Positions 3,457-37,481 of a DNA stretch of 64,000 nt are shown here, one piece after another (position 1 is the first letter of the stretch; every line of letters begins with the position of its first letter). The notes beneath the pieces are model-generated. The model saw only the letters and a program-made list of their open reading frames with translations, ran no database searches and had not been told where the DNA came from. The stretch covers positions 8,928,001-8,992,000 of the forward strand of contig NZ_CP108414.1 of the NCBI RefSeq assembly GCF_035978755.1, in the 5' to 3' direction. This DNA comes from Streptomyces sp. NBC_01298 (lineage in GTDB: Bacteria; Actinomycetota; Actinomycetes; Streptomycetales; Streptomycetaceae). Made by a program: the position numbers and the translations under genes.

Positions 3457-5928
3457 GTGCCTCCTGTCCCCTCGACCCGCGGCGTGCCACGTCGCGCGGC
3501 CGCTGCACTCGCCGGCCTCGCGCTGGCCGTCGGCGGCCTGTCCACGACCGCCCTGACCGTTCCTGTCGCGGCTGCCGCCACCGTGGCGGCCGCTGCCGAC
3601 ACGCCTGTACGGGTCAACCAGCTCGGCTACCTGCCCGACGGCCCCAAGCGGGCCACCGTGGCCAGCTCCGCGACAGCCCCGCTCGCCTGGCAACTGCGCG
3701 ACGCCTCCGGCGCCGTGGCCGCCACGGGCGTCACCACGGCGCGCGGTGCCGACCAGGCGTCCGGCCAGTCCACCCATATGGTGGACTTCGGCGCGTACAC
3801 CGGCGCCGGCGCCGGTTACACCCTGGTCGTCGGCGGCCAGAGCAGCCACCCCTTCGACATATCCGCCTCGCTGTACGACGGACTGCGCGCCGACAGCATG
3901 TCGTTCTTCTACCAGCAGCGCAGCGGTATCGCGATCGACGCCGCCCTGGCGGGCGGCAGCGCCTATGCCCGCCCCGCCGGGCACCTGGGCGTCGCCCCGA
4001 ACAAGGGCGACACCAGCGTCCCCTGCCAGGCCGGGGTGTGCGACTACCAAGTAGACGTGCGCGGCGGCTGGTACGACGCGGGCGACCAGGGCAAGTACGT
4101 GGTCAACGGCGGCATCTCCGTCTGGGAGATGGTCAACTCCTTCGAACGGGCCCGCCGTTCGGGCGGCGACGCGGCGCTCGGCGACGCGACGCTGCGGGTG
4201 CCGGAGCGTGGCAACGGGACGCCGGACGTGCTGGACGAGGCCCGCTGGGAGCTGGAGTTCCTGCTGCGGATGCAGGTCCCGGCGGGGAAGCCGATGGCCG
4301 GGATGGCCTTCCACAAGATGCACGACGCCAAGTGGACGGCTCTGCCGACCCGGCCCGAACTCGATTCCGAACAGCGTGAGGTGCACAAGCCGTCGACCGC
4401 CGCGACGCTGAACCTGGCCGCCTCGGCCGCGCAGTGTGCACGGGTGTACGCGCCGTACGACGCCGCGTTCGCCGCGCGCTGCCTGGACGCGGCCCGCCGT
4501 GCCTGGACGGCTGCCAAAGCGAACCCGAGCGTGCTCGCCCTGGCGAGCGACAACACCGGCGGCGGTGCGTACGAGGACGCCGACGTCTCCGACGAGTTCT
4601 ACTGGGCGGCGGCGGAACTCCTGGCCACCACGGGCGAGTCCCAGTACGGGGATGCCGTCACTTCCTCCCCGCACCATACCAAGGCCGTGGACGCGTTCTG
4701 GTGGGGCGGCACCGCGACGCCCGGCCGCATCACCCTCGCCACCGTCCCCGGCGTGGCCCTGCCCGCCGACGACGTGTCCCGGCTGCGCGGCCTGCTGACC
4801 ACGGCCGCCGACGGCCACCTGTCCACCATGGCCGGCCAGGGCTACGCCGTGCCCCTCGCCGCCACCGGGTACGTGTGGGGTTCCAACAGCTCCGTCACCA
4901 ACAACGCGATGGTGCTGGCCGTCGCCTACGAGATCACCGGGCAACAGCGCTATCGGGCCGGAGCCTTGGAGTCCCTGGACTATCTGCTCGGCCGCAACGC
5001 ACTGGACCTCTCCTACGTCACCGGCTACGGCGACCGCACTTCCGAGAACCAGCACCACCGGTTCTGGGCGCACCAGAACGACGCCTCGCTGCCGCACCCG
5101 CCGGCCGGTTCCTTCGCGGGCGGGCCGAACGCCGGCCTGGAGGACCCGGTGGCCAAGGAGAAGCTCGCGGGCTGCGCACCGGCGGCCTGCTACGTGGACG
5201 ACATCGGCTCGTACTCCACCAACGAGGTGGCCATCAACTGGAACGCCTCGCTGGCCTGGCTGGCGGCCTTCGCGGCTGAGCGGCGCAGCGCCCCGGCGGC
5301 GCCCGTGGTCCAGGTCGTACCGGCGGCCGTGACGGTCCCGGAGGGCGGCTCGGCGCCGGTGGGTGTACGGCTCTCGGCAGCGCCCGCGCAGAACGTGACG
5401 GTGACGGTGGCCCGGACCTCCGGCGACGAGGACCTGTCCGCAACCGCGACCCTGGTGTTCACCCCGGCCAACTGGGCGACGGCGCAGCAGGTTTCGGTCC
5501 TCGCCGCGCAGGACCCCGACGCGGCGTCGGGCAGCGCGACGCTCACGGCCGGTGGTCCTGGCGTGCAGTCGGCGACGTTCACGGCGACGGAGGCGGACGA
5601 CGACGCTTCGGCGGCCTCCTGCGCGGTGGCGTACCGGATCGACAACGCCTGGGGCAACGGCTTCACGGCGACGGTGACCGTGAAGAACACCGGAACCTCA
5701 ACGGTCTCCGGCTGGACCCTCGGCTGGAGCTTCGCGGGTGACCAGCGGATCACCAACGCCTGGAACGCCACGGTGAGCCAGTCGGGCAGCACGGTCACCG
5801 CCCGGGACACCGGATGGAACGGAACCCTGGCACCCGGCGGCAGCGTGAGCTTCGGCTTCCAGGCGACGTACTCGGGTACCAACGCGATGCCGGCGCGCTA
5901 CACGCTGGGCGGAGCACTCTGCTCCTGA
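3457..5928 (+). CDS. Secreted GH9 endoglucanase with CBM2
   Basis: The 823-aa protein starts at GTG 3457 behind a GAGGAAGG site. In order it has a signal peptide (to about residue 48), a CelD-N immunoglobulin-like domain ([16 protein letters not shown]), a GH9 catalytic domain and a beta-sandwich Calx-beta-like module. A C-terminal CBM2 (residues about 720-823) carries conserved W and terminal C residues. Catalytic-domain signatures are [17 protein letters not shown] with the aspartate pair, the NQHHRFW histidine motif and [12 protein letters not shown] with the late glutamate. It cleaves beta-1,4 bonds in cellulose outside the cell. A CebR-type operator upstream implies induction by cellobiose. 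Confidence 0.95.
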
Positions 5929-29322: not shown

Positions 29323-30756
29323 TCAGCTCTTCGTCAGCGTGCAGGTGTAAGGAGAGCTGCCCGAGCTTTGATATGCGTCGAGCTCGATGTAGTAGGTGCC
29401 GCTTCCGGCGGCGGTTCGGGTGAAGGTGAGGTTCTCGTCGGCGCCCACTCCATCGTTCACGGAACGGTCGACGGTGCTGCCGCCGGAGTCGAGCAGGTAG
29501 AGGTCGGCGTCATAGGCGCCGTCCGGAATGGCGCACTGGATACCGACCCGCTCGCCGGCCGAGAAGGAGACGCGGAAGTAGTCGCGGTCGGTGGTCGACT
29601 TCATGCTGCCGGTGAGTGAGGCGGGGTAGGCCAGCGCGGTGGCGTCATCGGCGGTGGCGCGGGTGTCGTTCGTTTCGGTTTCCGTCAGGGTGTTCGTGCC
29701 TCCGGGCGGGGTGCAGTCGCTCTGAGGGCTGCCGGTGTACAGGTTGGGGTCGGTGACTCCGCTGGTGACGCTGCGGAGGTAGTAGCCGCAGGTGGGTCGG
29801 TTCTTGAAGTCGTAGGTCTGCCCGGGGCCCAGGCGCCAGATCTTGTAGTTGGAGAAGGTCAGTGGTTTGCCCGAGGACGCCTGCTCCGGCTGGTGGTCGC
29901 CCAGGACGACGTAGGCCTCTTTGCCGTAGAGGGTGGCTGCTCCGTTCTTGTCGAGGAACAGTGAGCTGCCTTCCTCGACCCCTACGCCCCAGGCCTTGCC
30001 TCCGGAGGTCCGGCCGTCCTTGATGGCGCGGGCGACGAAGGCCATGGTGCGCCCCATCCGGTCGCGGGTGGTGAAGTGGGAGTCGTTGATGACCCCGCCG
30101 TAGTTCGCCCAGTCGAACATGCCGGTGGTGAAGGTGATGTAGCTGTCGTACGGGTTGGCGAGGGCTTCTGGGCTGGTGACGCTTCCCTTGCAGGCGTCGT
30201 AGACCACGGGGCTGTTGATGTGGTGGCCGGCGCTGCCGCCGCCCGCGCCGCCGCCCTTGGCCACGACGGACTCGACCGATGCCTCCAGCGCGCTGCCCTT
30301 CCAGGCGGTGTAGCGGCACTGGTCACCGCCGGCGAAGTAGACGAATTCGGCGTTGCGGATGTCGGTGTTGACCTGGCTGTTGTTGCCGTCCGCGGCGGCG
30401 GTCAGGGTCCAGGTGGTACAGGAGTTGACGCCGGGAAGCGCCATGGCGGCGTCGCATTCGGGCGTGGCGCTGCCCGAGGTGGGGGCGGAGCCGGCCAGTA
30501 CGACGACGTCCAGGCTGCCGGTGCCGCCGCGTACGGCGTCGATGGCGGCCGACATCGAACCGGGGATGATCTTGCCGTCGCCGTTCATGGTGAAGGCGGG
30601 CCCCTGCCATGACGTGCGGCTGACGTCCGAGCCGCTGCCCGAGCGGACCCGCGTGGTGGCCGCCTGCGCGCTGCTGGTCGAAGTGAGCGTGGCGGCAAGT
30701 GTGAGCAGTGCTACGGCGGTCGAGGTCAGCGAGGCATGTCTGATCCGTGTGCCCAT
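29323..30756 (-). CDS. Secreted cyanophycinase 1 (peptidase S51) with PPC domain
   Basis: The 477-aa protein starts at ATG 30756 behind TTGGAG. A signal peptide ends near SSAQAATT. The S51 domain keeps a Ser-His-Glu set: serine in AGGGSAGHHIN, histidine in VINDSHFTTRDRMGRTM and glutamate in VGVEEGSSLFLD. A C-terminal PPC domain (ETNDTRATADDATAL to the end) is typical of exported peptidases. Cyanophycinases cut the Asp-Arg storage polymer to beta-Asp-Arg dipeptides. It is divergent from an amino-acid importer operon that contains a second cyanophycinase. Confidence 0.82.
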   Translation of the reverse strand: MGTRIRHASLTSTAVALLTLAATLTSTSSAQAATTRVRSGSGSDVSRTSWQGPAFTMNGDGKIIPGSMSAAIDAVRGGTGSLDVVVLAGSAPTSGSATPECDAAMALPGVNSCTTWTLTAAADGNNSQVNTDIRNAEFVYFAGGDQCRYTAWKGSALEASVESVVAKGGGAGGGSAGHHINSPVVYDACKGSVTSPEALANPYDSYITFTTGMFDWANYGGVINDSHFTTRDRMGRTMAFVARAIKDGRTSGGKAWGVGVEEGSSLFLDKNGAATLYGKEAYVVLGDHQPEQASSGKPLTFSNYKIWRLGPGQTYDFKNRPTCGYYLRSVTSGVTDPNLYTGSPQSDCTPPGGTNTLTETETNDTRATADDATALAYPASLTGSMKSTTDRDYFRVSFSAGERVGIQCAIPDGAYDADLYLLDSGGSTVDRSVNDGVGADENLTFTRTAAGSGTYYIELDAYQSSGSSPYTCTLTKS

Positions 30757-30984
30757 GGCTTCTCCAAGGGGTGGGGGAGGGGTGGGGTATCCGCGGGAGG
30801 CAGGGCGTGGCGACGCCCTGAGCGGCGCTTGGGGAGGTGCGCCGTCCTGTAGGTGCAGTAGCGGAACTTACAAGCCGGTCCGAATGGGCGGTAGATGTAG
30901 AGCGAGAATCGCTTCACTCTTGCGGTGCGTGGGCGGTTTCGTCAGCTCAAGTGTCAGCTCGAAGGGCTCTCGCGGCCGACAAGG

Positions 30985-31010
30985 CGCTCGTTACCTCAAT
31001 GTAACGAGCG
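30985..31010. promoter_or_regulatory. Operator-like inverted repeat in the divergent promoter region
   Basis: CGCTCGTTAC-CTCAAT-GTAACGAGCG is a perfect 10-bp inverted repeat with a 6-nt spacer, 97 bp upstream of the binding-protein start. It is the only strong dyad in the 350-bp gap between cyanophycinase 1 and the importer, so it may be the site of the RpiR regulator. Confidence 0.6.
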
Positions 31011-31106
31011 ATACATCTAGCCATCAGTCGCATGCGTCTGTAATTTTCGGGTTGTAGTCGACGGCGAACACCCCGTCGGCCCGAAGACCGGAGAGGCATA
31101 CGCCTG

Positions 31107-32060
31107 ATGAACACCCGTTTGTCCAGAAACCTGATCGCGGCGCTGACGGCCGCGACCGCGCTGGCCACGCTCACTTCCTGTTCGGACTCCGCCGCCGACA
31201 CCGCCAAGGCCACCGGCGGACAGCCGGCCACTGTCGCGGGGGTGGCGGTCGCGAAGGACGCCGCGCTGTACGACGCACTGCCCGACGCGATCAAGAAGTC
31301 GGGCACCGTCCGCGTGGCCACGGACGTGCCCTACGCGCCGTTCGAGATGTTCGTGGCCGAGGGCAAGCCCGAGCTCACCGGGCTCGATTACGACCTGGGA
31401 CAGGCGCTGGGAGCCAAGCTGGGCGTGAAGTTCGAGTTCGCGCCTCAGAAGTTCGACGGGATCGTGCCGGCCATTCAGGCCGGGAAGTTCGACGCGGCGA
31501 TGTCGGCGATGACGGACAACAAGGAGCGCCAGGCGGTCGTCGACTTCGTCGACTACTCCGTCTCCGGGTCCGGAATCATGGTGATCAAGGGCAACCCCGA
31601 GAAGATCACCACTCTCGATGACCTGTGCGGCAAGAAGGCCGCGGTGCAGGCGGCGACCAACCAGCTGGACCTCCTCAAGGAAAACCAGGCGAAGTGCAAG
31701 GCCGCCGGGAAGAGCGAGATCGACATCCAGACCTTCCCCAAGGACTCCGACGCGCAGCTCGCCCTGCGCTCCGGCAAGGTCGTCGCCCAGGTGCAGACCA
31801 AGCCCGCCGCGGGCTGGACGGCCAAGACCGCCGACGGCGGCAACGCCTTCCAGATCGTCGACGATCCGGCTGCCGCGGGCGGCTACGGGGCCTCGCCGAA
31901 CGGGATCGCGGTCTCCAAGAAGCTGCCCCAGCTCAGCGACGCGATCCTCAAGGCCTTGCAGGCTCTGATCGACGACGGAACCGTGACCAAGATCTTCGAC
32001 AAGTACGGTGTCGCCTCGATCGCCGTCAAGGAGGCCACCAAGAACGCGGCGGTGGACTAG
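31107..32060 (+). CDS. Polar amino-acid ABC transporter binding lipoprotein
   Basis: The 317-aa protein starts at ATG 31107 behind CGGAGAGG. The signal ends in lipobox LTSC (cysteine about residue 25). The family-3 solute-binding fold is clear: [55 protein letters not shown] and the C-terminal [14 protein letters not shown]. It heads an operon with permease, ATPase, M20 peptidase and cyanophycinase 2. The proposed ligand is beta-Asp-Arg or arginine, by context only. Confidence 0.92.
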
Positions 32061-32062
32061 AA

Positions 32063-33037
32063 ATGACCACCACCACAGCTCCCGCCGACATCGATCGCCC
32101 GGCCCCCGAGCAGCTCACCGTCGTACCGCTGCGCCACTACGGCCGTTGGATCGCCGCTGTCGCGGCCATGACCGCACTCGTCGGCGTGGCCGGATCACTG
32201 GCGAAGAACGGCAATCTCCACTGGGAGGTCATCGGGCGTTTCCTCTTCGCCGACCTGATCTTCTCCGGCCTCGTCACGACCCTGTGGCTCACCGTGGCGG
32301 CGATGGCCCTCGGACTTCTTCTGGGCACGCTGGTCGCCGTGATGCGGCTGTCGTCCAACCCGGTTCTCTACGGCATGTCCTCGCTGTTCGTCTGGTTCTT
32401 CCGCGGCACCCCGCTGCTGGTCCAGATCATCTTCTGGGGATACGCCGCCGCCCTCTACCAGTACGTGAAGATCGGCATCCCGTTCACCAGCGTCACCTTC
32501 CTCCAGGTCGAGACGAACTCCCTCCTCACCCCGGCCGTCGCAGCCCTGCTGGCCCTCGGTCTCAACGAGGCCGCGTACGCCTCGGAGATCGTCCGCGCCG
32601 GCATCCAGTCGGTGGACCCCGGCCAGAGCGAAGCCGCGCACTCCCTCGGCATGCGACCCGCCCAGACGATGCGCAGGATCGTGCTGCCCCAAGCCATGCG
32701 GGTGATCATCCCGCCGATGGGCAACGAGTCGATCAACATGCTGAAGATGACCGCCCTGGTATCGATCATCTCGGCGCACGACCTGATGTCCAACATCCAG
32801 GACGTATACGCGCAGAACTACCAGGTCATCCCCATGCTCGTCGTCGCCAGCCTCTGGTACCTGGGACTGGTCACCCTGCTCGGCATCCCGCAGGCATGGC
32901 TGGAGCGCCGCTACGGCCGCGGAACCGACCGCGGCGGCCACGCCTCACCTCTCCGTCGCATGCTCACCGGCGCACTGGCCCAGCCTGCCGGCCGGCCCGC
33001 CCGCACGAAGAAGAACACCAAGGAGGCGGCAGCGTGA
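32063..33037 (+). CDS. Polar amino-acid ABC transporter permease
   Basis: The 324-aa membrane protein starts two bases after the binding-protein stop. It has the HisM/GlnP-type region [35 protein letters not shown] and the EAA loop [23 protein letters not shown]. The N-terminal and C-terminal tails are polar and Thr/Lys-rich. It probably works as a homodimer because only one permease gene is present. Confidence 0.93.
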
Positions 33038-33798
33038 ACGTCCCCATGGTCCACGCCCAAGGCGTGCGCAAGCACTTCGGGAAACTCGAAGTCCTCAAGG
33101 GCATCGACCTGACCGTCCAACGCGGCCAGGTGTGCTGTCTGCTGGGCCCCTCCGGCTCAGGCAAGTCGACGTTCCTGCGCTGCATCAACCACCTCGACAG
33201 AGTCGACGGCGGGAAGCTCGCGGTCGACGGCGACCTGGTCGGGTACCGCCAGAGCGGATCGCGGCTCCACGAACTCCGGGAGAAGGAGGTCGCCGCGAGA
33301 CGACGCGACATCGGCATGGTCTTCCAGCGCTTCAACCTGTTCCCTCACATGACCGCCCTGGACAACGTCATGGAAGCCCCCGTCAACGTCTGCAAGACCG
33401 ACAGGTCGCAGGCCAGGGACGAGGCTCGGCACCTGCTGGAACAGGTGGGTCTCGGGGATCGGGCGGGCCACTACCCGGCCCAGCTCTCGGGCGGGCAGCA
33501 GCAGCGCGTCGCCATCGCGCGAGCCCTGGCGATGAAACCCAAACTCATGCTTTTCGACGAACCCACCTCCGCGCTCGACCCGGAACTGGTCGGAGACGTC
33601 CTGGACGTGATGCGCCGGCTCGCGGCAGACGGCATGACGATGGTCGTGGTCACCCACGAAATCGGCTTTGCCCGCGAGGTCGGTGACACCGCCGTCTTCA
33701 TGGACGACGGCGTCGTCGTCGAATCCGGTGACCCGCGGCAGGTCCTTGTCGAACCCCGGCAGGAACGCACCCGCGCGTTCCTCTCGAAGGTCCTGTGA
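33034..33798 (+). CDS. Polar amino-acid ABC transporter ATPase
   Basis: The 254-aa protein starts at GTG 33034, overlapping the permease stop by GTGA, behind AAGGAGG. Walker A is GPSGSGKST, the ABC signature [15 protein letters not shown], Walker [14 protein letters not shown] and the switch histidine VVVTHE. These define a GlnQ/HisP-type ATPase. Confidence 0.95.
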
Positions 33799-35009
33799 CC
33801 GCCCCCTCACGGGAGCAGCCGCACACCAACGAGCTGCTTCCGTATGCCGAGGCGCGTCTGGAAGGCTACCTGTCCGACCTGGCCGGCCTGGTCGCCATCG
33901 ACTCGGGCTCCTACAGCCCCGTCGGCGTGAACCAGATGGCCGACTGGACCCAGAACCGGCTGCTGAGGCTCGGATTCGCCGTCGAGCGCGTGGCTCCCGA
34001 CCCCACTCACGGGCACCCTGTCGGCGATGTGATCCTCGCCCGGAAACAGGGCGACCTTCCGGTCGAGCAGGGCGGACGACGCCTCCTGCTCGTCGCGCAC
34101 CTCGACACCGTCTTCGACGACGGAACCGCCGCGGCGAGGCCCTTTCAGCTCGACGGCCACACGGCGCGCGGCCCCGGTGTCAGCGATGACAAGGCCGGAC
34201 TGCTGGCCGGTATCACCGCTCTGGAGATCCTGGAGGAGACCGGGGCGGGGCAGTACGCGGAGCTCGTCTTCCTCGCCACCCCGGACGAGGAGATCGGCTC
34301 ACCGGCGAGCCGCCCGGTGACCGAAGCGGCAGCCCGTGGTGTCCACTTCGCCCTGGCCCTGGAATGTGCCCGGGAGAACGGAGACCTGGTCATCGCCCGC
34401 AAAGGTGTCGCCGACTTCCGCGTGAGCGTCACCGGCCGGGCAGCGCACGCCGGCATCGAGCCGGAGCGCGGAGCGAACGCGGCTCTGACCGCCGCCCACC
34501 TCGTCGTGGCTCTGCAGTCCCTCAACGGCCACTGGGACGACGTCACCGTCAACGTCGGTGTCGTACGGGCCGGCAGCCGCACCAACATCGTCTGCCCGGA
34601 AGCCGAACTGCGCGTCGAGGTGCGCTCGGCGACAGCCGCCGGACTCGCCGCGGCCCACCGTGCGATCGAGTCCGCCGCCGCACGGCCCGCCGTGACCGGT
34701 ACGACGGCGACGGTCGAGCAGCTGGACCTGTGCCCGCCCATGGAGGACACACCCGCCTCACGCCGCATGTTCGACCAGGCCAGACGCATTGCCGCAGGCC
34801 TGGGGATCAGCCTGCACGGTGCGGCGACCGGCGGCGTCGGGGACGCCAACTTCATCGCGGGTCTCCGCGTGCCCACCCTGGACGGCCTCGGCCCGGTCGG
34901 CGGCGCCGACCACACCCCGGAGGAATGGCTGGACACCTCGACCGTCCCGGCCCGCGTCGCCCTCCTGGCTTCACTCGTCGCCGAACTCGGCGACAGCCGC
35001 ACCGGCTGA
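33795..35009 (+). CDS. M20-family metallopeptidase (carboxypeptidase G2-like)
   Basis: The 404-aa protein starts at GTG 33795, overlapping the ATPase stop by GTGA. Zinc-site motifs are [40 protein letters not shown] and [12 protein letters not shown]; an inserted dimerisation domain ([15 protein letters not shown]) follows the M20A pattern. No signal peptide is seen. Carboxypeptidase G2-type enzymes cleave C-terminal residues from acyl-amino acids and dipeptides. Coupling to an importer and to a cyanophycinase gene suggests it splits imported beta-Asp-Arg; that is inference. Confidence 0.9.
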
Positions 35010-35022
35010 CACCCCCAAGGAC

Positions 35023-35063
35023 GTCCCGTACCGGTTTGATCGCGCCATTGCCCGGTACGGGAC
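35023..35063 (+). promoter_or_regulatory. Hairpin between the M20 and cyanophycinase 2 genes
   Basis: GTCCCGTACCGG (35023-35034) pairs perfectly with CCGGTACGGGAC (35052-35063) over a 17-nt loop. It could be a terminator, an attenuator or a transcript-stabilising element inside the operon. No T run follows. Confidence 0.6.
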
Positions 35064-35181
35064 CCAGCCCCGGCAGCCCCTCCCACCAGGCACCGGGCTG
35101 CCGGCCCGCGCCGGGACCGCGGCCGCCACCAGCCGCCGCGGTCCCGGCCACCACCCGACCCCACCCACAGGAGCCATGCCC

Positions 35182-36471
35182 ATGCGCGTCCCGACCGGAG
35201 CCCGCCGTACCGCACTGGCGGGCAGCACCGCTCTCCTTCTCGGCCTCACCCTCGCCCCGGCCGCCCAGGCCCACACCGCCAAGTCAGCCAACGGCGGTGG
35301 CTCGCTCGTCCTGATCGGCGGCGGCCTGAAGGCCGACAACACGCAGGTCTACGGCGAGATCATCAAGCGTGCGGGTGGATCGAAAGCCCGCATCGGTGTC
35401 CTCACCGCCGCTTCGGTCCCCGCCAGCCAGGATCCCGACGCGGGCGACCCCGAGAACTGCGGCAACTCCGTTTGCAACGGCGCCTACTACGCCGGACTCT
35501 TCAAGCAGCACGGTGCCGCCGACGCCCAATGGATCCCCATCGACCTCGACCACATCGCCCATGCCGACTCCGACGAGGTCGTACGGCAGGTCAACTCCAT
35601 GACCGGCTTCTTCTTCGGCGGCGGCGACCAGTACCGCTACGTCACCACTTTGCTCCACGGCTCCGCCCACACCGACTCCAAGGTTCTCGCCGCCATCCGG
35701 GCGAAGCTCGCCGCCGGGGCGGTCGTATCCGGATCCAGCGCCGGAGCACAGATAGCGGCCGGAGCCGACATGGTCACCGGAGGCGACTCCTACGAAGCAC
35801 TGCGCGACGGCAGCAGCCCGGGCTATTTCGACGACCCGGCCCGGCTCGGCTACCTCCCCGAAGGCGGCTTCGGCTTCCTGCGCTCCGGACTGATCGACAC
35901 CCACACCGGAACGAACGGACGCGAAGGCAGGGCCCTGCGGCTCGCCGCCGACACCGGACACGACCGCGTGTACGCACTGGAAGAGAACACCGCCCTCGTC
36001 GTCGAGGATCCCAGCACCCCGCGCGAGCGACTGCGCGTCCTGGGCCCGCAAGGCGTCGCCATCCTGGACCTCCGCCAAGCCCGAACCGGCAAGAACCCAC
36101 AGGCCGGATGGAGCCTGAGCGGCGCCCGCTACACCTACCTCTCGAACGGAGACCGCTACGACCCGAACCGCTGGCAGATCCTGCCCGCCGACGGCAAGCG
36201 GCCCCTGATCCCGCTGACAGCCTCACCGATACCCGCCAACTCGGACGTCTTCTACTCCCCGGCCAACCCCGCGGGCGTCCCCTACTCCTTCCTGAACACC
36301 GCCCGCGCCCTCGCCGCGAGTACCCGGCGCACCACCACGGCCGCCACATTCGAGAGCGGCCCCCGATTCACCGTCACCTTCACCAAGCAACCCGGATTCA
36401 CCGCCTGGACCAGCGACGACGCCACCGCGCACACCGTCACCGGCCTGCGGATAGCCGTCGCTCCGGAGTGA
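35182..36471 (+). CDS. Secreted cyanophycinase 2 (peptidase S51)
   Basis: The 429-aa protein starts at ATG 35182 (AGGAG 8 bases upstream; ATG 35176 is too close to it). A signal peptide ends AAQAHT. S51 motifs are strong: GGSLVLIGGG, GFFFGGGDQYRYV, nucleophile serine in VVSGSSAGAQI, histidine in GLIDTHTGTNGREGRALRL and glutamate in RVYALEENTALVVED. These match the cyanophycinase Ser, His and ENTA signatures. It lacks the PPC domain of cyanophycinase 1 and instead has a 130-residue C-terminal region of unknown type. Confidence 0.88.
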   Translation: MRVPTGARRTALAGSTALLLGLTLAPAAQAHTAKSANGGGSLVLIGGGLKADNTQVYGEIIKRAGGSKARIGVLTAASVPASQDPDAGDPENCGNSVCNGAYYAGLFKQHGAADAQWIPIDLDHIAHADSDEVVRQVNSMTGFFFGGGDQYRYVTTLLHGSAHTDSKVLAAIRAKLAAGAVVSGSSAGAQIAAGADMVTGGDSYEALRDGSSPGYFDDPARLGYLPEGGFGFLRSGLIDTHTGTNGREGRALRLAADTGHDRVYALEENTALVVEDPSTPRERLRVLGPQGVAILDLRQARTGKNPQAGWSLSGARYTYLSNGDRYDPNRWQILPADGKRPLIPLTASPIPANSDVFYSPANPAGVPYSFLNTARALAASTRRTTTAATFESGPRFTVTFTKQPGFTAWTSDDATAHTVTGLRIAVAPE

Positions 36472-36499
36472 CTCTGCCCTGACGCACTCCGGGCGACCG

Positions 36500-36531
36500 G
36501 GCCGGCCGGAACCCGGGGGTTCCGGCCGGCC
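36500..36531 (+). terminator. Terminator hairpin after cyanophycinase 2
   Basis: GGCCGGCCGGAACCC (36500-36514) and its exact complement (36517-36531) form a 15-bp stem with a tight loop. It separates the operon from the RpiR gene. Confidence 0.75.
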
Positions 36532-36611
36532 ACACCGCTCACGATCGCCAGTAGGCTCGACCTCAACCTTGACCGCCCAAGCACCCACGCATACGAAGGA
36601 AGACCCAGCGC

Positions 36612-37481
36612 ATGGCCCCTGGCACGCTCGCCGACGAGATCCGCCTCAAGCTGGGCGACGCCAGCCCCGCCGAACGGAAAGTCGCACGCGTGCTACTCGC
36701 CGGCTATCCCGCGGCCGGTTTCGAAACCATGGCAGTCCTCGCGGAACGCGCCGCCGTCAGCACCCCGACCGTCCTGCGCTTCATCAACCGGCTCGGCTAC
36801 CGCGGCTTCCCCGACTTCCAGGCCGCGCTCCGCGCAGAGCTCGACGAACGCAACGCCTCCCCCCTCTCCCTCTACGAGGCAACCGACTACGGCCGCGGCC
36901 ACGACGGAGGCGAGGACCTTTCCCTCCTCCAGCGCGGCAGCAACCTCTTCAGCGCCGCCGTGGCCCAGACCCTCGCCGAACTACCCCCGCACGATCTCGA
37001 ACACGCGATCGCACTGCTCTCCGACGGAAAACGCCGCATCACCCTGGCCGGCGGCCGGTTCACGAACCTCTTCGCCCAGTACCTCGGCCTGCACCTCATG
37101 CAGGTACGCGACGACGTCCGGTTCCTGCCGGACCGGGACGTCGAACGGACCGCCCAGCTCGCAGCGGTGAACCGACGTGACGTCTTCGTACTGTTCGACT
37201 ACCGGCGCTACGAGCCGGACAAGGTCTCCGTGGCCGAACTCGTCCAGGAGCAGGGCGGCAAGGTCATCCTCTTCACCGACGTATGGCTTTCACCCGCGGC
37301 CGCCCACGCACAGGTGGTCCTGCCGAGCCAGGTGGCCGCACCCTCCCCGTACGACAGCCTGGTCCCCACCCTCGCCATCATCGAAACCGTCGTCGCCGGC
37401 GTGCTCACCGCCCTCGGTGAAGGCGCCCGCCAGCGGATGCAGCGCGGAGAGGACACCGCCCGCCGGATGGGCCTGTACTGA
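36612..37481 (+). CDS. RpiR/MurR-family transcriptional regulator
   Basis: The 289-aa protein starts at ATG 36612 behind AAGGAAG. The N-terminal HTH_6 domain reads LGDASPAERKVARVLLAGYP and MAVLAERAAVSTPTVLRFINRLGYRGFPDFQAAL. A SIS domain follows (ITLAGGRFTNLFAQYLGLHL, DVFVLFDYRRY). RpiR regulators usually sense phosphosugars, but some control amino-acid or peptide use. It sits directly after the cyanophycinase operon and is the likely regulator of the 30985-31010 dyad. Confidence 0.9.
   Translation: MAPGTLADEIRLKLGDASPAERKVARVLLAGYPAAGFETMAVLAERAAVSTPTVLRFINRLGYRGFPDFQAALRAELDERNASPLSLYEATDYGRGHDGGEDLSLLQRGSNLFSAAVAQTLAELPPHDLEHAIALLSDGKRRITLAGGRFTNLFAQYLGLHLMQVRDDVRFLPDRDVERTAQLAAVNRRDVFVLFDYRRYEPDKVSVAELVQEQGGKVILFTDVWLSPAAAHAQVVLPSQVAAPSPYDSLVPTLAIIETVVAGVLTALGEGARQRMQRGEDTARRMGLY

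Follow-up and report, generated by a model that had tools for sequence, protein, structure and literature searches.

Introduction

Import of the dipeptide beta-Asp-Arg by an ATP-binding cassette (ABC) transporter is reportedly the task of the Pseudomonas aot operon (in a CphZ/AotO study said to be from PNAS, 2023). A cyanophycin utilization locus was described by Ben Hania et al., as cited in PMC10206079; in the available parts of the latter survey, 52 genomes encode a cyanophycinase together with IaaA or IadA and no cyanophycin synthetase (CphA1), with the genes clustered in 45, and the isoaspartyl dipeptidases of Firmicutes and Bacteroidota are described as still undiscovered. Here we describe a locus of seven genes in Streptomyces sp. 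NBC_01298 (genome size 9.7 Mb), which lies at positions 29323-37481 of a 64,000-nucleotide stretch of contig NZ_CP108414.1; this whole stretch is referred to as the window. The genes encode two cyanophycinase-like S51 peptidases (S51A and S51B), the binding protein, permease and ATPase of an ABC importer, an M20 metallopeptidase and an RpiR-family regulator.

Sequence comparisons make cyanophycin-type depolymerisation followed by uptake quite likely as the function of this locus, and a scavenging system for foreign cyanophycin, with the M20 enzyme splitting the imported beta-Asp-Arg, moderately likely. The locus is a new variant of the cyanophycin utilization locus: a clustered amino-acid transporter is present, no cphA1 scored over the cut-off (17 genomes) and neither iaaA nor an iadA over the cut-off was detected (37 genomes). 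Since the defining IadA/IaaA is absent, it is treated as a variant that works alike and not as a member.

Results

Among 199 Streptomyces genomes, including that of the window, S51A was found in 10, S51B in 12 and M20 in 17 (thresholds of E 0.001, 1e-20 and 1e-60, respectively), and the three distributions are strictly nested (hypergeometric probability, kinship ignored, of 9e-13 for the nesting of S51A in M20 and 1e-15 for that of S51B). A 67-residue S51A match in genome G126 (33%, residues 326-392) was left out of the count. In all 17 genomes M20 directly follows the genes for the binding protein, permease and ATPase and an RpiR gene is nearby, the set being split over two contigs in G178 (loci L021 and L031). 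Five of the 17 carry neither S51 gene, and depolymerase genes never occur in these genomes without importer and M20. This asymmetry is what the logic of the pathway predicts, because a depolymerase without uptake feeds others, and uptake without a depolymerase can draw on polymer that others have broken down.

Scanning the S51A alignment over named genomes gave 76 loci from 72 genomes (four contribute two), of which 71 contain M20, 68 S51B, 73 the binding protein, 72 the permease, 72 the ATPase and 68 RpiR. Streptomyces virginiae (L105) and S. flavotricini (L032) are among the carriers of the set. With duplicates removed by record name, the loci with M20 represent 68 named genomes; L080 and L102, like L087 and L101, overlap on one contig so that the same M20 gene is counted twice, and the named-genome loci share several strains with the 199-genome set, which means that the two sets of counts are not independent. 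Where M20 is missing, two loci (L041 and L061) stop before it, and M20 lies near the edge of another contig, adjoining the ATPase and S51B genes. L094 is the second S51A of a genome with a complete locus (L055), and L077 is cut by a contig end, with just a 39% partial M20 elsewhere in its genome. No M20 was detected at E 1e-20 in the Gemmatimonas genome with L107, a 39% relative of S51A. L107 has no cassette; five of its ten scanned frames matched profiles (receptor plug, DUF4249, transposase, response regulator and amidase), the receptor-plug protein, transposase and amidase lying within 10 kb.

Gene order was compared in 102 loci, a redundant set. The commonest Streptomyces order (23 loci) has S51A divergent from binding protein-permease-ATPase-M20-S51B-RpiR, and 16 loci share this order with RpiR turned. 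In Micromonospora the order is S51B-S51A-RpiR-binding protein-permease-ATPase-M20 (12 loci), which recurs with S51B turned in Catellatospora and Hamadaea (4 loci), and Dactylosporangium has importer-M20, a turned S51B, S51A and RpiR (2 loci). RpiR stands in front and S51A is absent in L129 and L130, and a 40% identical S51B follows RpiR in L127. In a class-wide draw of 394 genomes, a threshold of E 1e-70 gave M20 in 9, which belong to 4 of the 137 genera; the importer core accompanies it in 8/8 of those other than the window's own genome, S51B in 5, S51A in 3 and RpiR in 7, the locus without RpiR (L123) ending at a contig edge. The set is thus kept across genera under rearrangement; a gene order not conserved in relatives was among the outcomes that the sequence-only reading had named as speaking against it, and it was not observed.

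The flanks were compared using 1582 frames of at least 130 residues (E 1e-20, 30% identity), with antisense core frames masked and core paralogues counted as core. Across the 32 loci, a single further gene family recurs, being present in 5, and none is present in more. The unit is taken to be these seven genes, because the flanks hold no widely recurring partner; extra binding-protein or RpiR paralogues accompany it in some loci.

S51A exceeds the cut-off of the PPC profile and scores 51.4 bits with the NCBIfam cyanophycinase model (TIGR02069), under the cut-off of 126.6, with no match to the Pfam S51 profile at E 0.001. S51B exceeds the cut-off of PF03575, scores 89.8 bits with TIGR02069 and has no PPC, in agreement with the earlier view of two unlike S51 genes. 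The expected Ser, His and Glu motifs were found in both proteins, as S175, H227 and E262 in S51A and S188, H243 and E270 in S51B. In the available parts of PMC3235067, the pocket or activity-critical residues of CphB are Gln101, Asp172, Gln173, Arg178, Arg180 and Arg183, beside Ser132, and Gln173 is not kept in CphE. All of Gln101, Asp172, Arg178, Arg180 and Arg183 (5/5) are matched in S51A, and the sole described pocket residue to be changed is Gln173 (Ser226). The S51A pocket (Q146, D225, S226, R231, R233 and R236) together with S175 is invariant over 76 relatives save for one D225G. Because its pocket residues are kept, S51A looks like a true cyanophycinase.

In S51B, residues Q152, D241, T242, H243, R249, R252 and S188 are present in 71/71 sequences and four of the five CphB residues are matched, the Arg178 position being N247 in the window. 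A Phe follows the His in 18/18 Micromonosporaceae and 0/53 others, and the triad Glu is found in 13/18 Micromonosporaceae versus 53/53 other relatives. The nearest solved structures are cyanophycinases for S51A and S51B alike, and the names of S51B relatives, where given, are mostly 'cyanophycinase' (among 120 listed of 696). By these residues S51B is of the same line as S51A, with a pocket that appears to have drifted outside the Micromonosporaceae. Export of both proteins is predicted from the N-termini, judged by eye. Tat (twin-arginine translocation) export of S51B is not claimed, the motif being present in only 49/71 and absent from most Micromonosporaceae, and a structure of S51A from AlphaFold2 (10-sequence alignment; mean predicted local distance difference test score, pLDDT, of 51.6) was not used.

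Some Streptomyces S51A stop near residue 349 and have no PPC (L020:7514-8584, L021:4005-5051 and L022:7478-8503), so this domain seems dispensable. The S51B of genome G057 is broken over two frames (L022:12821-14063), and a second, incomplete M20 copy occurs in genome G162 beside a split S51B (L030:7321-9387), with no importer; these copies reflect either decay or assembly error.

Known enzymes were searched for in 37 genomes, namely the 17 M20-bearing Streptomyces and 20 genomes of other genera. IaaA (PF01112) was found in 0/17 and 0/20 (in a control set of 14 known genomes the model matched 5, one of them being E. coli). No IadA (TIGR01975) was found over the cut-off of 331 in the 17 genomes, all of which have weak matches (best 40.5 bits), and none at E 1e-15 in the 20 others; the E. 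coli control passed the cut-off when the stricter search was used. Matches to CphA1 (TIGR02068) over the cut-off occur in 0/17 Streptomyces genomes, with weak matches in 17/17 (best 136 bits versus 850), and the proposed lack of a cyanophycin synthetase therefore stands. For the CphZ-type M14 model (PF24827), 24 of the 37 genomes were unmatched at E 0.001; the match in the window's own genome lies about 8.5 Mb from the locus, and its frame has an N-terminus that looks signal-like by eye. Absence of CphZ is not claimed because PF24827 is a broad model, and CphZ is less firmly excluded than IaaA, IadA and CphA1. The earlier statement that no known cleavers of beta-Asp-Arg are present thus holds genome-wide for IaaA and IadA (37/37) and only in part for the CphZ type.

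The M20 protein matches Peptidase_M20 and M20_dimer and has no signal peptide by eye. Its metal ligands H102, D131, E165, E166 and E190 are present in 78/78 sequences and H373 in 77/78, with one gap. It has the fold of carboxypeptidase G2, an enzyme which removes C-terminal glutamate, at 30% identity, and scores 273.9 bits with the glutamate carboxypeptidase subfamily model PRK06133, without reaching the curated cut-off of 349. M20 enzymes are often broad in substrate, and relatives include hydrolases of N-acyl substrates and of C-terminal glutamate. The column of carboxypeptidase G2 Lys208 is Asp197 and that of Arg324 is Cys313 or Thr (numbering counted on the M20-carboxypeptidase G2 alignment). 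The charge switch from Lys208 to Asp197 was considered as proof of an Arg-binding pocket and rejected, PepT (3gb0) having Glu in the same column.

The ATPase and M20 genes overlap by 4 bases in the window and in 75 of 87 further pairs (some genomes being present twice), and by 1 base in 8; of the remaining 4 pairs, three are separated by 1, 55 and 231 bases and one is a single frame spanning both genes. The single frame is in Micromonospora (L081:14318-16153) and is a fusion or a sequencing error. From association and elimination, the M20 enzyme is probably a beta-Asp-Arg dipeptidase. The proposal of such an activity in the sequence-only reading has become likelier because IaaA and IadA are missing genome-wide and because M20 is linked to the set in 71 of the 76 loci; it is still drawn from sequence, and the core also occurs without S51 genes nearby, with carboxypeptidase G2 as the nearest characterised relative.

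For the binding protein the best alignments are to ancestral amino-acid binding proteins, and a lipobox-like motif is present in 79/82 of its relatives. Arg141, in a column which we take to be that of the Arg holding the ligand carboxylate, is kept in 82/82, and the Asp column of AncQR, presumably that of the Asp holding the ligand ammonium, is Thr231 in 82/82. Loss of the ammonium-binding Asp fits beta-Asp-Arg because the Arg nitrogen is acylated there; the swap is consistent with this ligand and is no proof of it. A second binding protein with 50-59% identity to that of the window is found in L016, L018, L035, L044, L048, L055, L058, L080, L085, L087, L099, L100 and L106, perhaps for a second ligand, and an additional RpiR gene is found in several loci of Streptomyces.

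An operator-like element, CGTTAC-n6-GTAACG overlapping TGTAAC-n4-GATACA and followed by TCTAG, lies between the S51A and binding-protein genes. The CGTTAC-n6-GTAACG part is perfect (30989-31006; 0.04 expected allowing up to one mismatch), and the core TGTAAC-n4-GTTACA (31000-31015, one mismatch) is the sole match in the window at up to two mismatches. Outside the Micromonosporaceae, ACATCTA occurs in 51 of 63 regions upstream of the binding-protein gene, mostly about 100 bases before it, within the consensus CGTTAC-n6-GTAACG...TACATCTAG. A weight matrix built from these 51 regions was applied to 19 loci from Micromonosporaceae, each 8 to 21 kb long. In 18 of them the best site precedes S51A by no more than 250 bases; in the 19th (L086) it falls at 4504, shortly ahead of the gene for the binding protein (4559). 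The scores range from -2.9 to 35.1, compared with a maximum of 3.7 and a mean of -6.0 for shuffled loci, which preserved base content only. A second conserved element, GTAGCGGAACWTACAAG, lies upstream of S51A; its anchor was found in 35 of the 81 regions upstream of this gene, and the element could be a weak version of the operator-like site. The shared element supports the seven genes as a unit, and RpiR would be the protein that reads it.

All seven genes are open as frames placed as the sequence-only reading had them, and their identities, among them the one-permease polar amino-acid importer, agree with Pfam and NCBIfam profiles, in which both S51 proteins stay under the cyanophycinase cut-off (Table 1).

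Table 1 Features of the locus in the window.
Feature	Positions	Strand	Basis
S51A, predicted secreted cyanophycinase-like serine peptidase with C-terminal PPC	29323..30756	-	Profiles, alignment; signal-like N-terminus by eye
Conserved element GTAGCGGAACWTACAAG	30858..30874	+	About 100 bp upstream of S51A
Operator-like element, candidate RpiR site	30989..31020	+	Gap between S51A and binding protein
Lipoprotein solute-binding protein, polar amino-acid family	31107..32060	+	SBP_bac_3; lipobox-like motif
Single ABC permease	32063..33037	+	BPD_transp_1
ABC ATPase, GTG start, 4-base overlap with permease gene	33034..33798	+	ABC_tran
M20 metallopeptidase, GTG start, 4-base overlap with ATPase gene	33795..35009	+	Peptidase_M20 and M20_dimer
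S51B, second predicted secreted cyanophycinase-like peptidase, without PPC	35176 or 35182 to 36471	+	PF03575; signal-like N-terminus by eye
RpiR-family regulator	36612..37481	+	HTH_6 and SIS

Discussion

Extracellular degradation of cyanophycin with uptake of the products, as first put forward from the window alone, is well supported by the pocket residues, the rearranged yet conserved gene set, the shared cis element and the lack of a synthetase. Exported S51A and S51B would cut the poly-Asp backbone to give beta-Asp-Arg, as their family, pocket residues and signal-like N-termini suggest. The lipoprotein would bind this dipeptide for import by the permease/ATPase pair, and the cytoplasmic M20 enzyme would split it into Asp and Arg in place of IadA, IaaA or CphZ, a role suggested by linkage and elimination. 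RpiR may control the set via the TGTAAC-n4-GTTACA-like element.

Several observations weigh against this reading. S51A and S51B both lie below the NCBIfam cyanophycinase equivalog cut-off, and the triad Glu is not strict among their relatives (66/76 for S51A and 66/71 for S51B). An Arg178 equivalent is found in 14/18 Micromonosporaceae S51B and in 0/53 others, so that it is lost in Streptomyces. The fold of the M20 enzyme does not reveal its substrate, and the Cys or Thr of M20 stands at the place of Arg324, whose counterparts appear to be tied to binding of the substrate C-terminus. Weak CphZ-type M14 matches occur in 13 of the 37 genomes, and in 9 of them they pass a cut-off that is itself low (best 33.7 bits). 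Seven loci hold the core with no S51 gene (L025-L029, with S51 absence checked genome-wide, and L124 and L126, checked at the locus only), so it must serve some purpose of its own. RpiR regulators usually sense sugar phosphates. The TGTAAC-n4-GTTACA motif, at up to two mismatches, is expected 0.25 times per window and was found in 23 of 100 shuffled windows, and the matrix scores of L077 (-2.9) and L086 (2.4) are within the shuffled range, so that these two sites stand out by place and not by score.

Some of these points would be accommodated if the locus handled cyanophycin while the M20 enzyme acted elsewhere, for example in trimming other imported peptides, with another enzyme (M14 or an unrelated isoaspartyl peptidase) cutting beta-Asp-Arg. 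The M14 matches, the often broad specificity of M20 enzymes and the nearest solved relative being carboxypeptidase G2 are in keeping with this. We nevertheless consider it unlikely, as M20 is the only other peptidase of a recurrent set (71 of 76 loci) and the M20 and ATPase genes overlap; furthermore, IaaA, and IadA over the cut-off, are absent from all 37 genomes, most of these gave no match to M14 at E 0.001, and the match in the window's own genome is far from the locus with a signal-like N-terminus. A little less likely again is that the S51 pair and importer serve another isoaspartyl or Asp-backbone pool, such as modified cyanophycin or isoaspartyl-rich cell-wall or protein peptides. The missing Arg178 equivalent of S51B outside the Micromonosporaceae, the sub-threshold S51 scores and a binding-protein ligand that is only predicted would fit such a pool; against it, the S51A pocket is kept in 76/76 save the one D225G, the nearest solved structures of both proteins are cyanophycinases, and the Micromonosporaceae S51B mostly keep the Arg and all keep the Phe after the His.

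It is very improbable that the importer and M20 form a general N-acyl or gamma-glutamyl amino acid system which the S51 genes joined by chance of neighbourhood, even with seven loci holding the core without S51 nearby and with M20 relatives that hydrolyse N-acyl substrates and C-terminal glutamate. Barring contig breaks (L041, L061 and L077), S51 genes occur without the core only in L094, L107 and L030, of which L094 shares its genome with the full L055, L107 is distant (39%) and L030 is a broken copy beside part of an M20, and the association survives several rearrangements along with a shared cis element.

Scavenging of foreign cyanophycin, with M20 as the dipeptidase, hence remains the preferred reading. 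In an extended form, offered tentatively, the M20 subfamily would join IadA, IaaA and CphZ as a fourth, unrelated class of cyanophycin dipeptide hydrolase. Its substrate would arrive through a Gram-positive ABC importer dedicated to this task, in whose binding protein the ammonium-binding Asp has been exchanged for Thr to accept an N-acylated arginine (beta-Asp-Arg). RpiR would control the whole set and sense the dipeptide or a product, and some Streptomyces, with just the importer, M20 and RpiR left, would subsist on dipeptide that their neighbours release. The analysis provides, for the final step of cyanophycin breakdown, a candidate from a peptidase family not known for splitting beta-Asp-Arg, with a defined operon and orthologues in 68 named genomes. 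If the reading is correct, soil actinobacteria feed on cyanophycin, a nitrogen-rich storage polymer of other microbes, and one genus contains both depolymerase carriers and dipeptide-only users, a cheater-like split by gene content.

No link between M20 and cyanophycin, and no paper on cyanophycinase in Micromonospora, was found in the open-licence literature. The M20 enzyme shares its fold and dinuclear metal ligands with carboxypeptidase G2, PahZ2, CN2 and PM20D2; it differs from carboxypeptidase G2 in the changed Lys208 and Arg324 columns and in scoring below the PRK06133 cut-off. Like CphZ/AotO of Pseudomonas, it would be a dedicated metallopeptidase for intracellular hydrolysis of beta-Asp-Arg; CphZ, however, is annotated as M14/succinylglutamate desuccinylase, whereas the enzyme described here is an M20 with the carboxypeptidase G2 fold. 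As far as the available parts of PMC3235067 describe CphE of Pseudomonas, the S51 proteins resemble it in the triad of GXSXG serine, His and Glu and, by eye, in the secretion signal, and S51A also keeps the pocket Gln, Asp and three Arg; unlike CphE, S51A has Ser for Thr223 and often a PPC, the Streptomyces S51B have one Arg fewer, and both proteins score below the NCBIfam cut-off. With the cyanophycin utilization locus, as outlined in the available parts of PMC10206079, the locus has in common the clustering of cyanophycinase-like genes, transporter and proposed dipeptidase and the absence of cphA1 over the cut-off (17 genomes). It differs in its dipeptidase, which is IadA in that locus (or IaaA in the PMC10206079 survey) and here probably M20, and in combining a one-permease polar amino-acid ABC importer with two unlike S51 proteins and an RpiR regulator.

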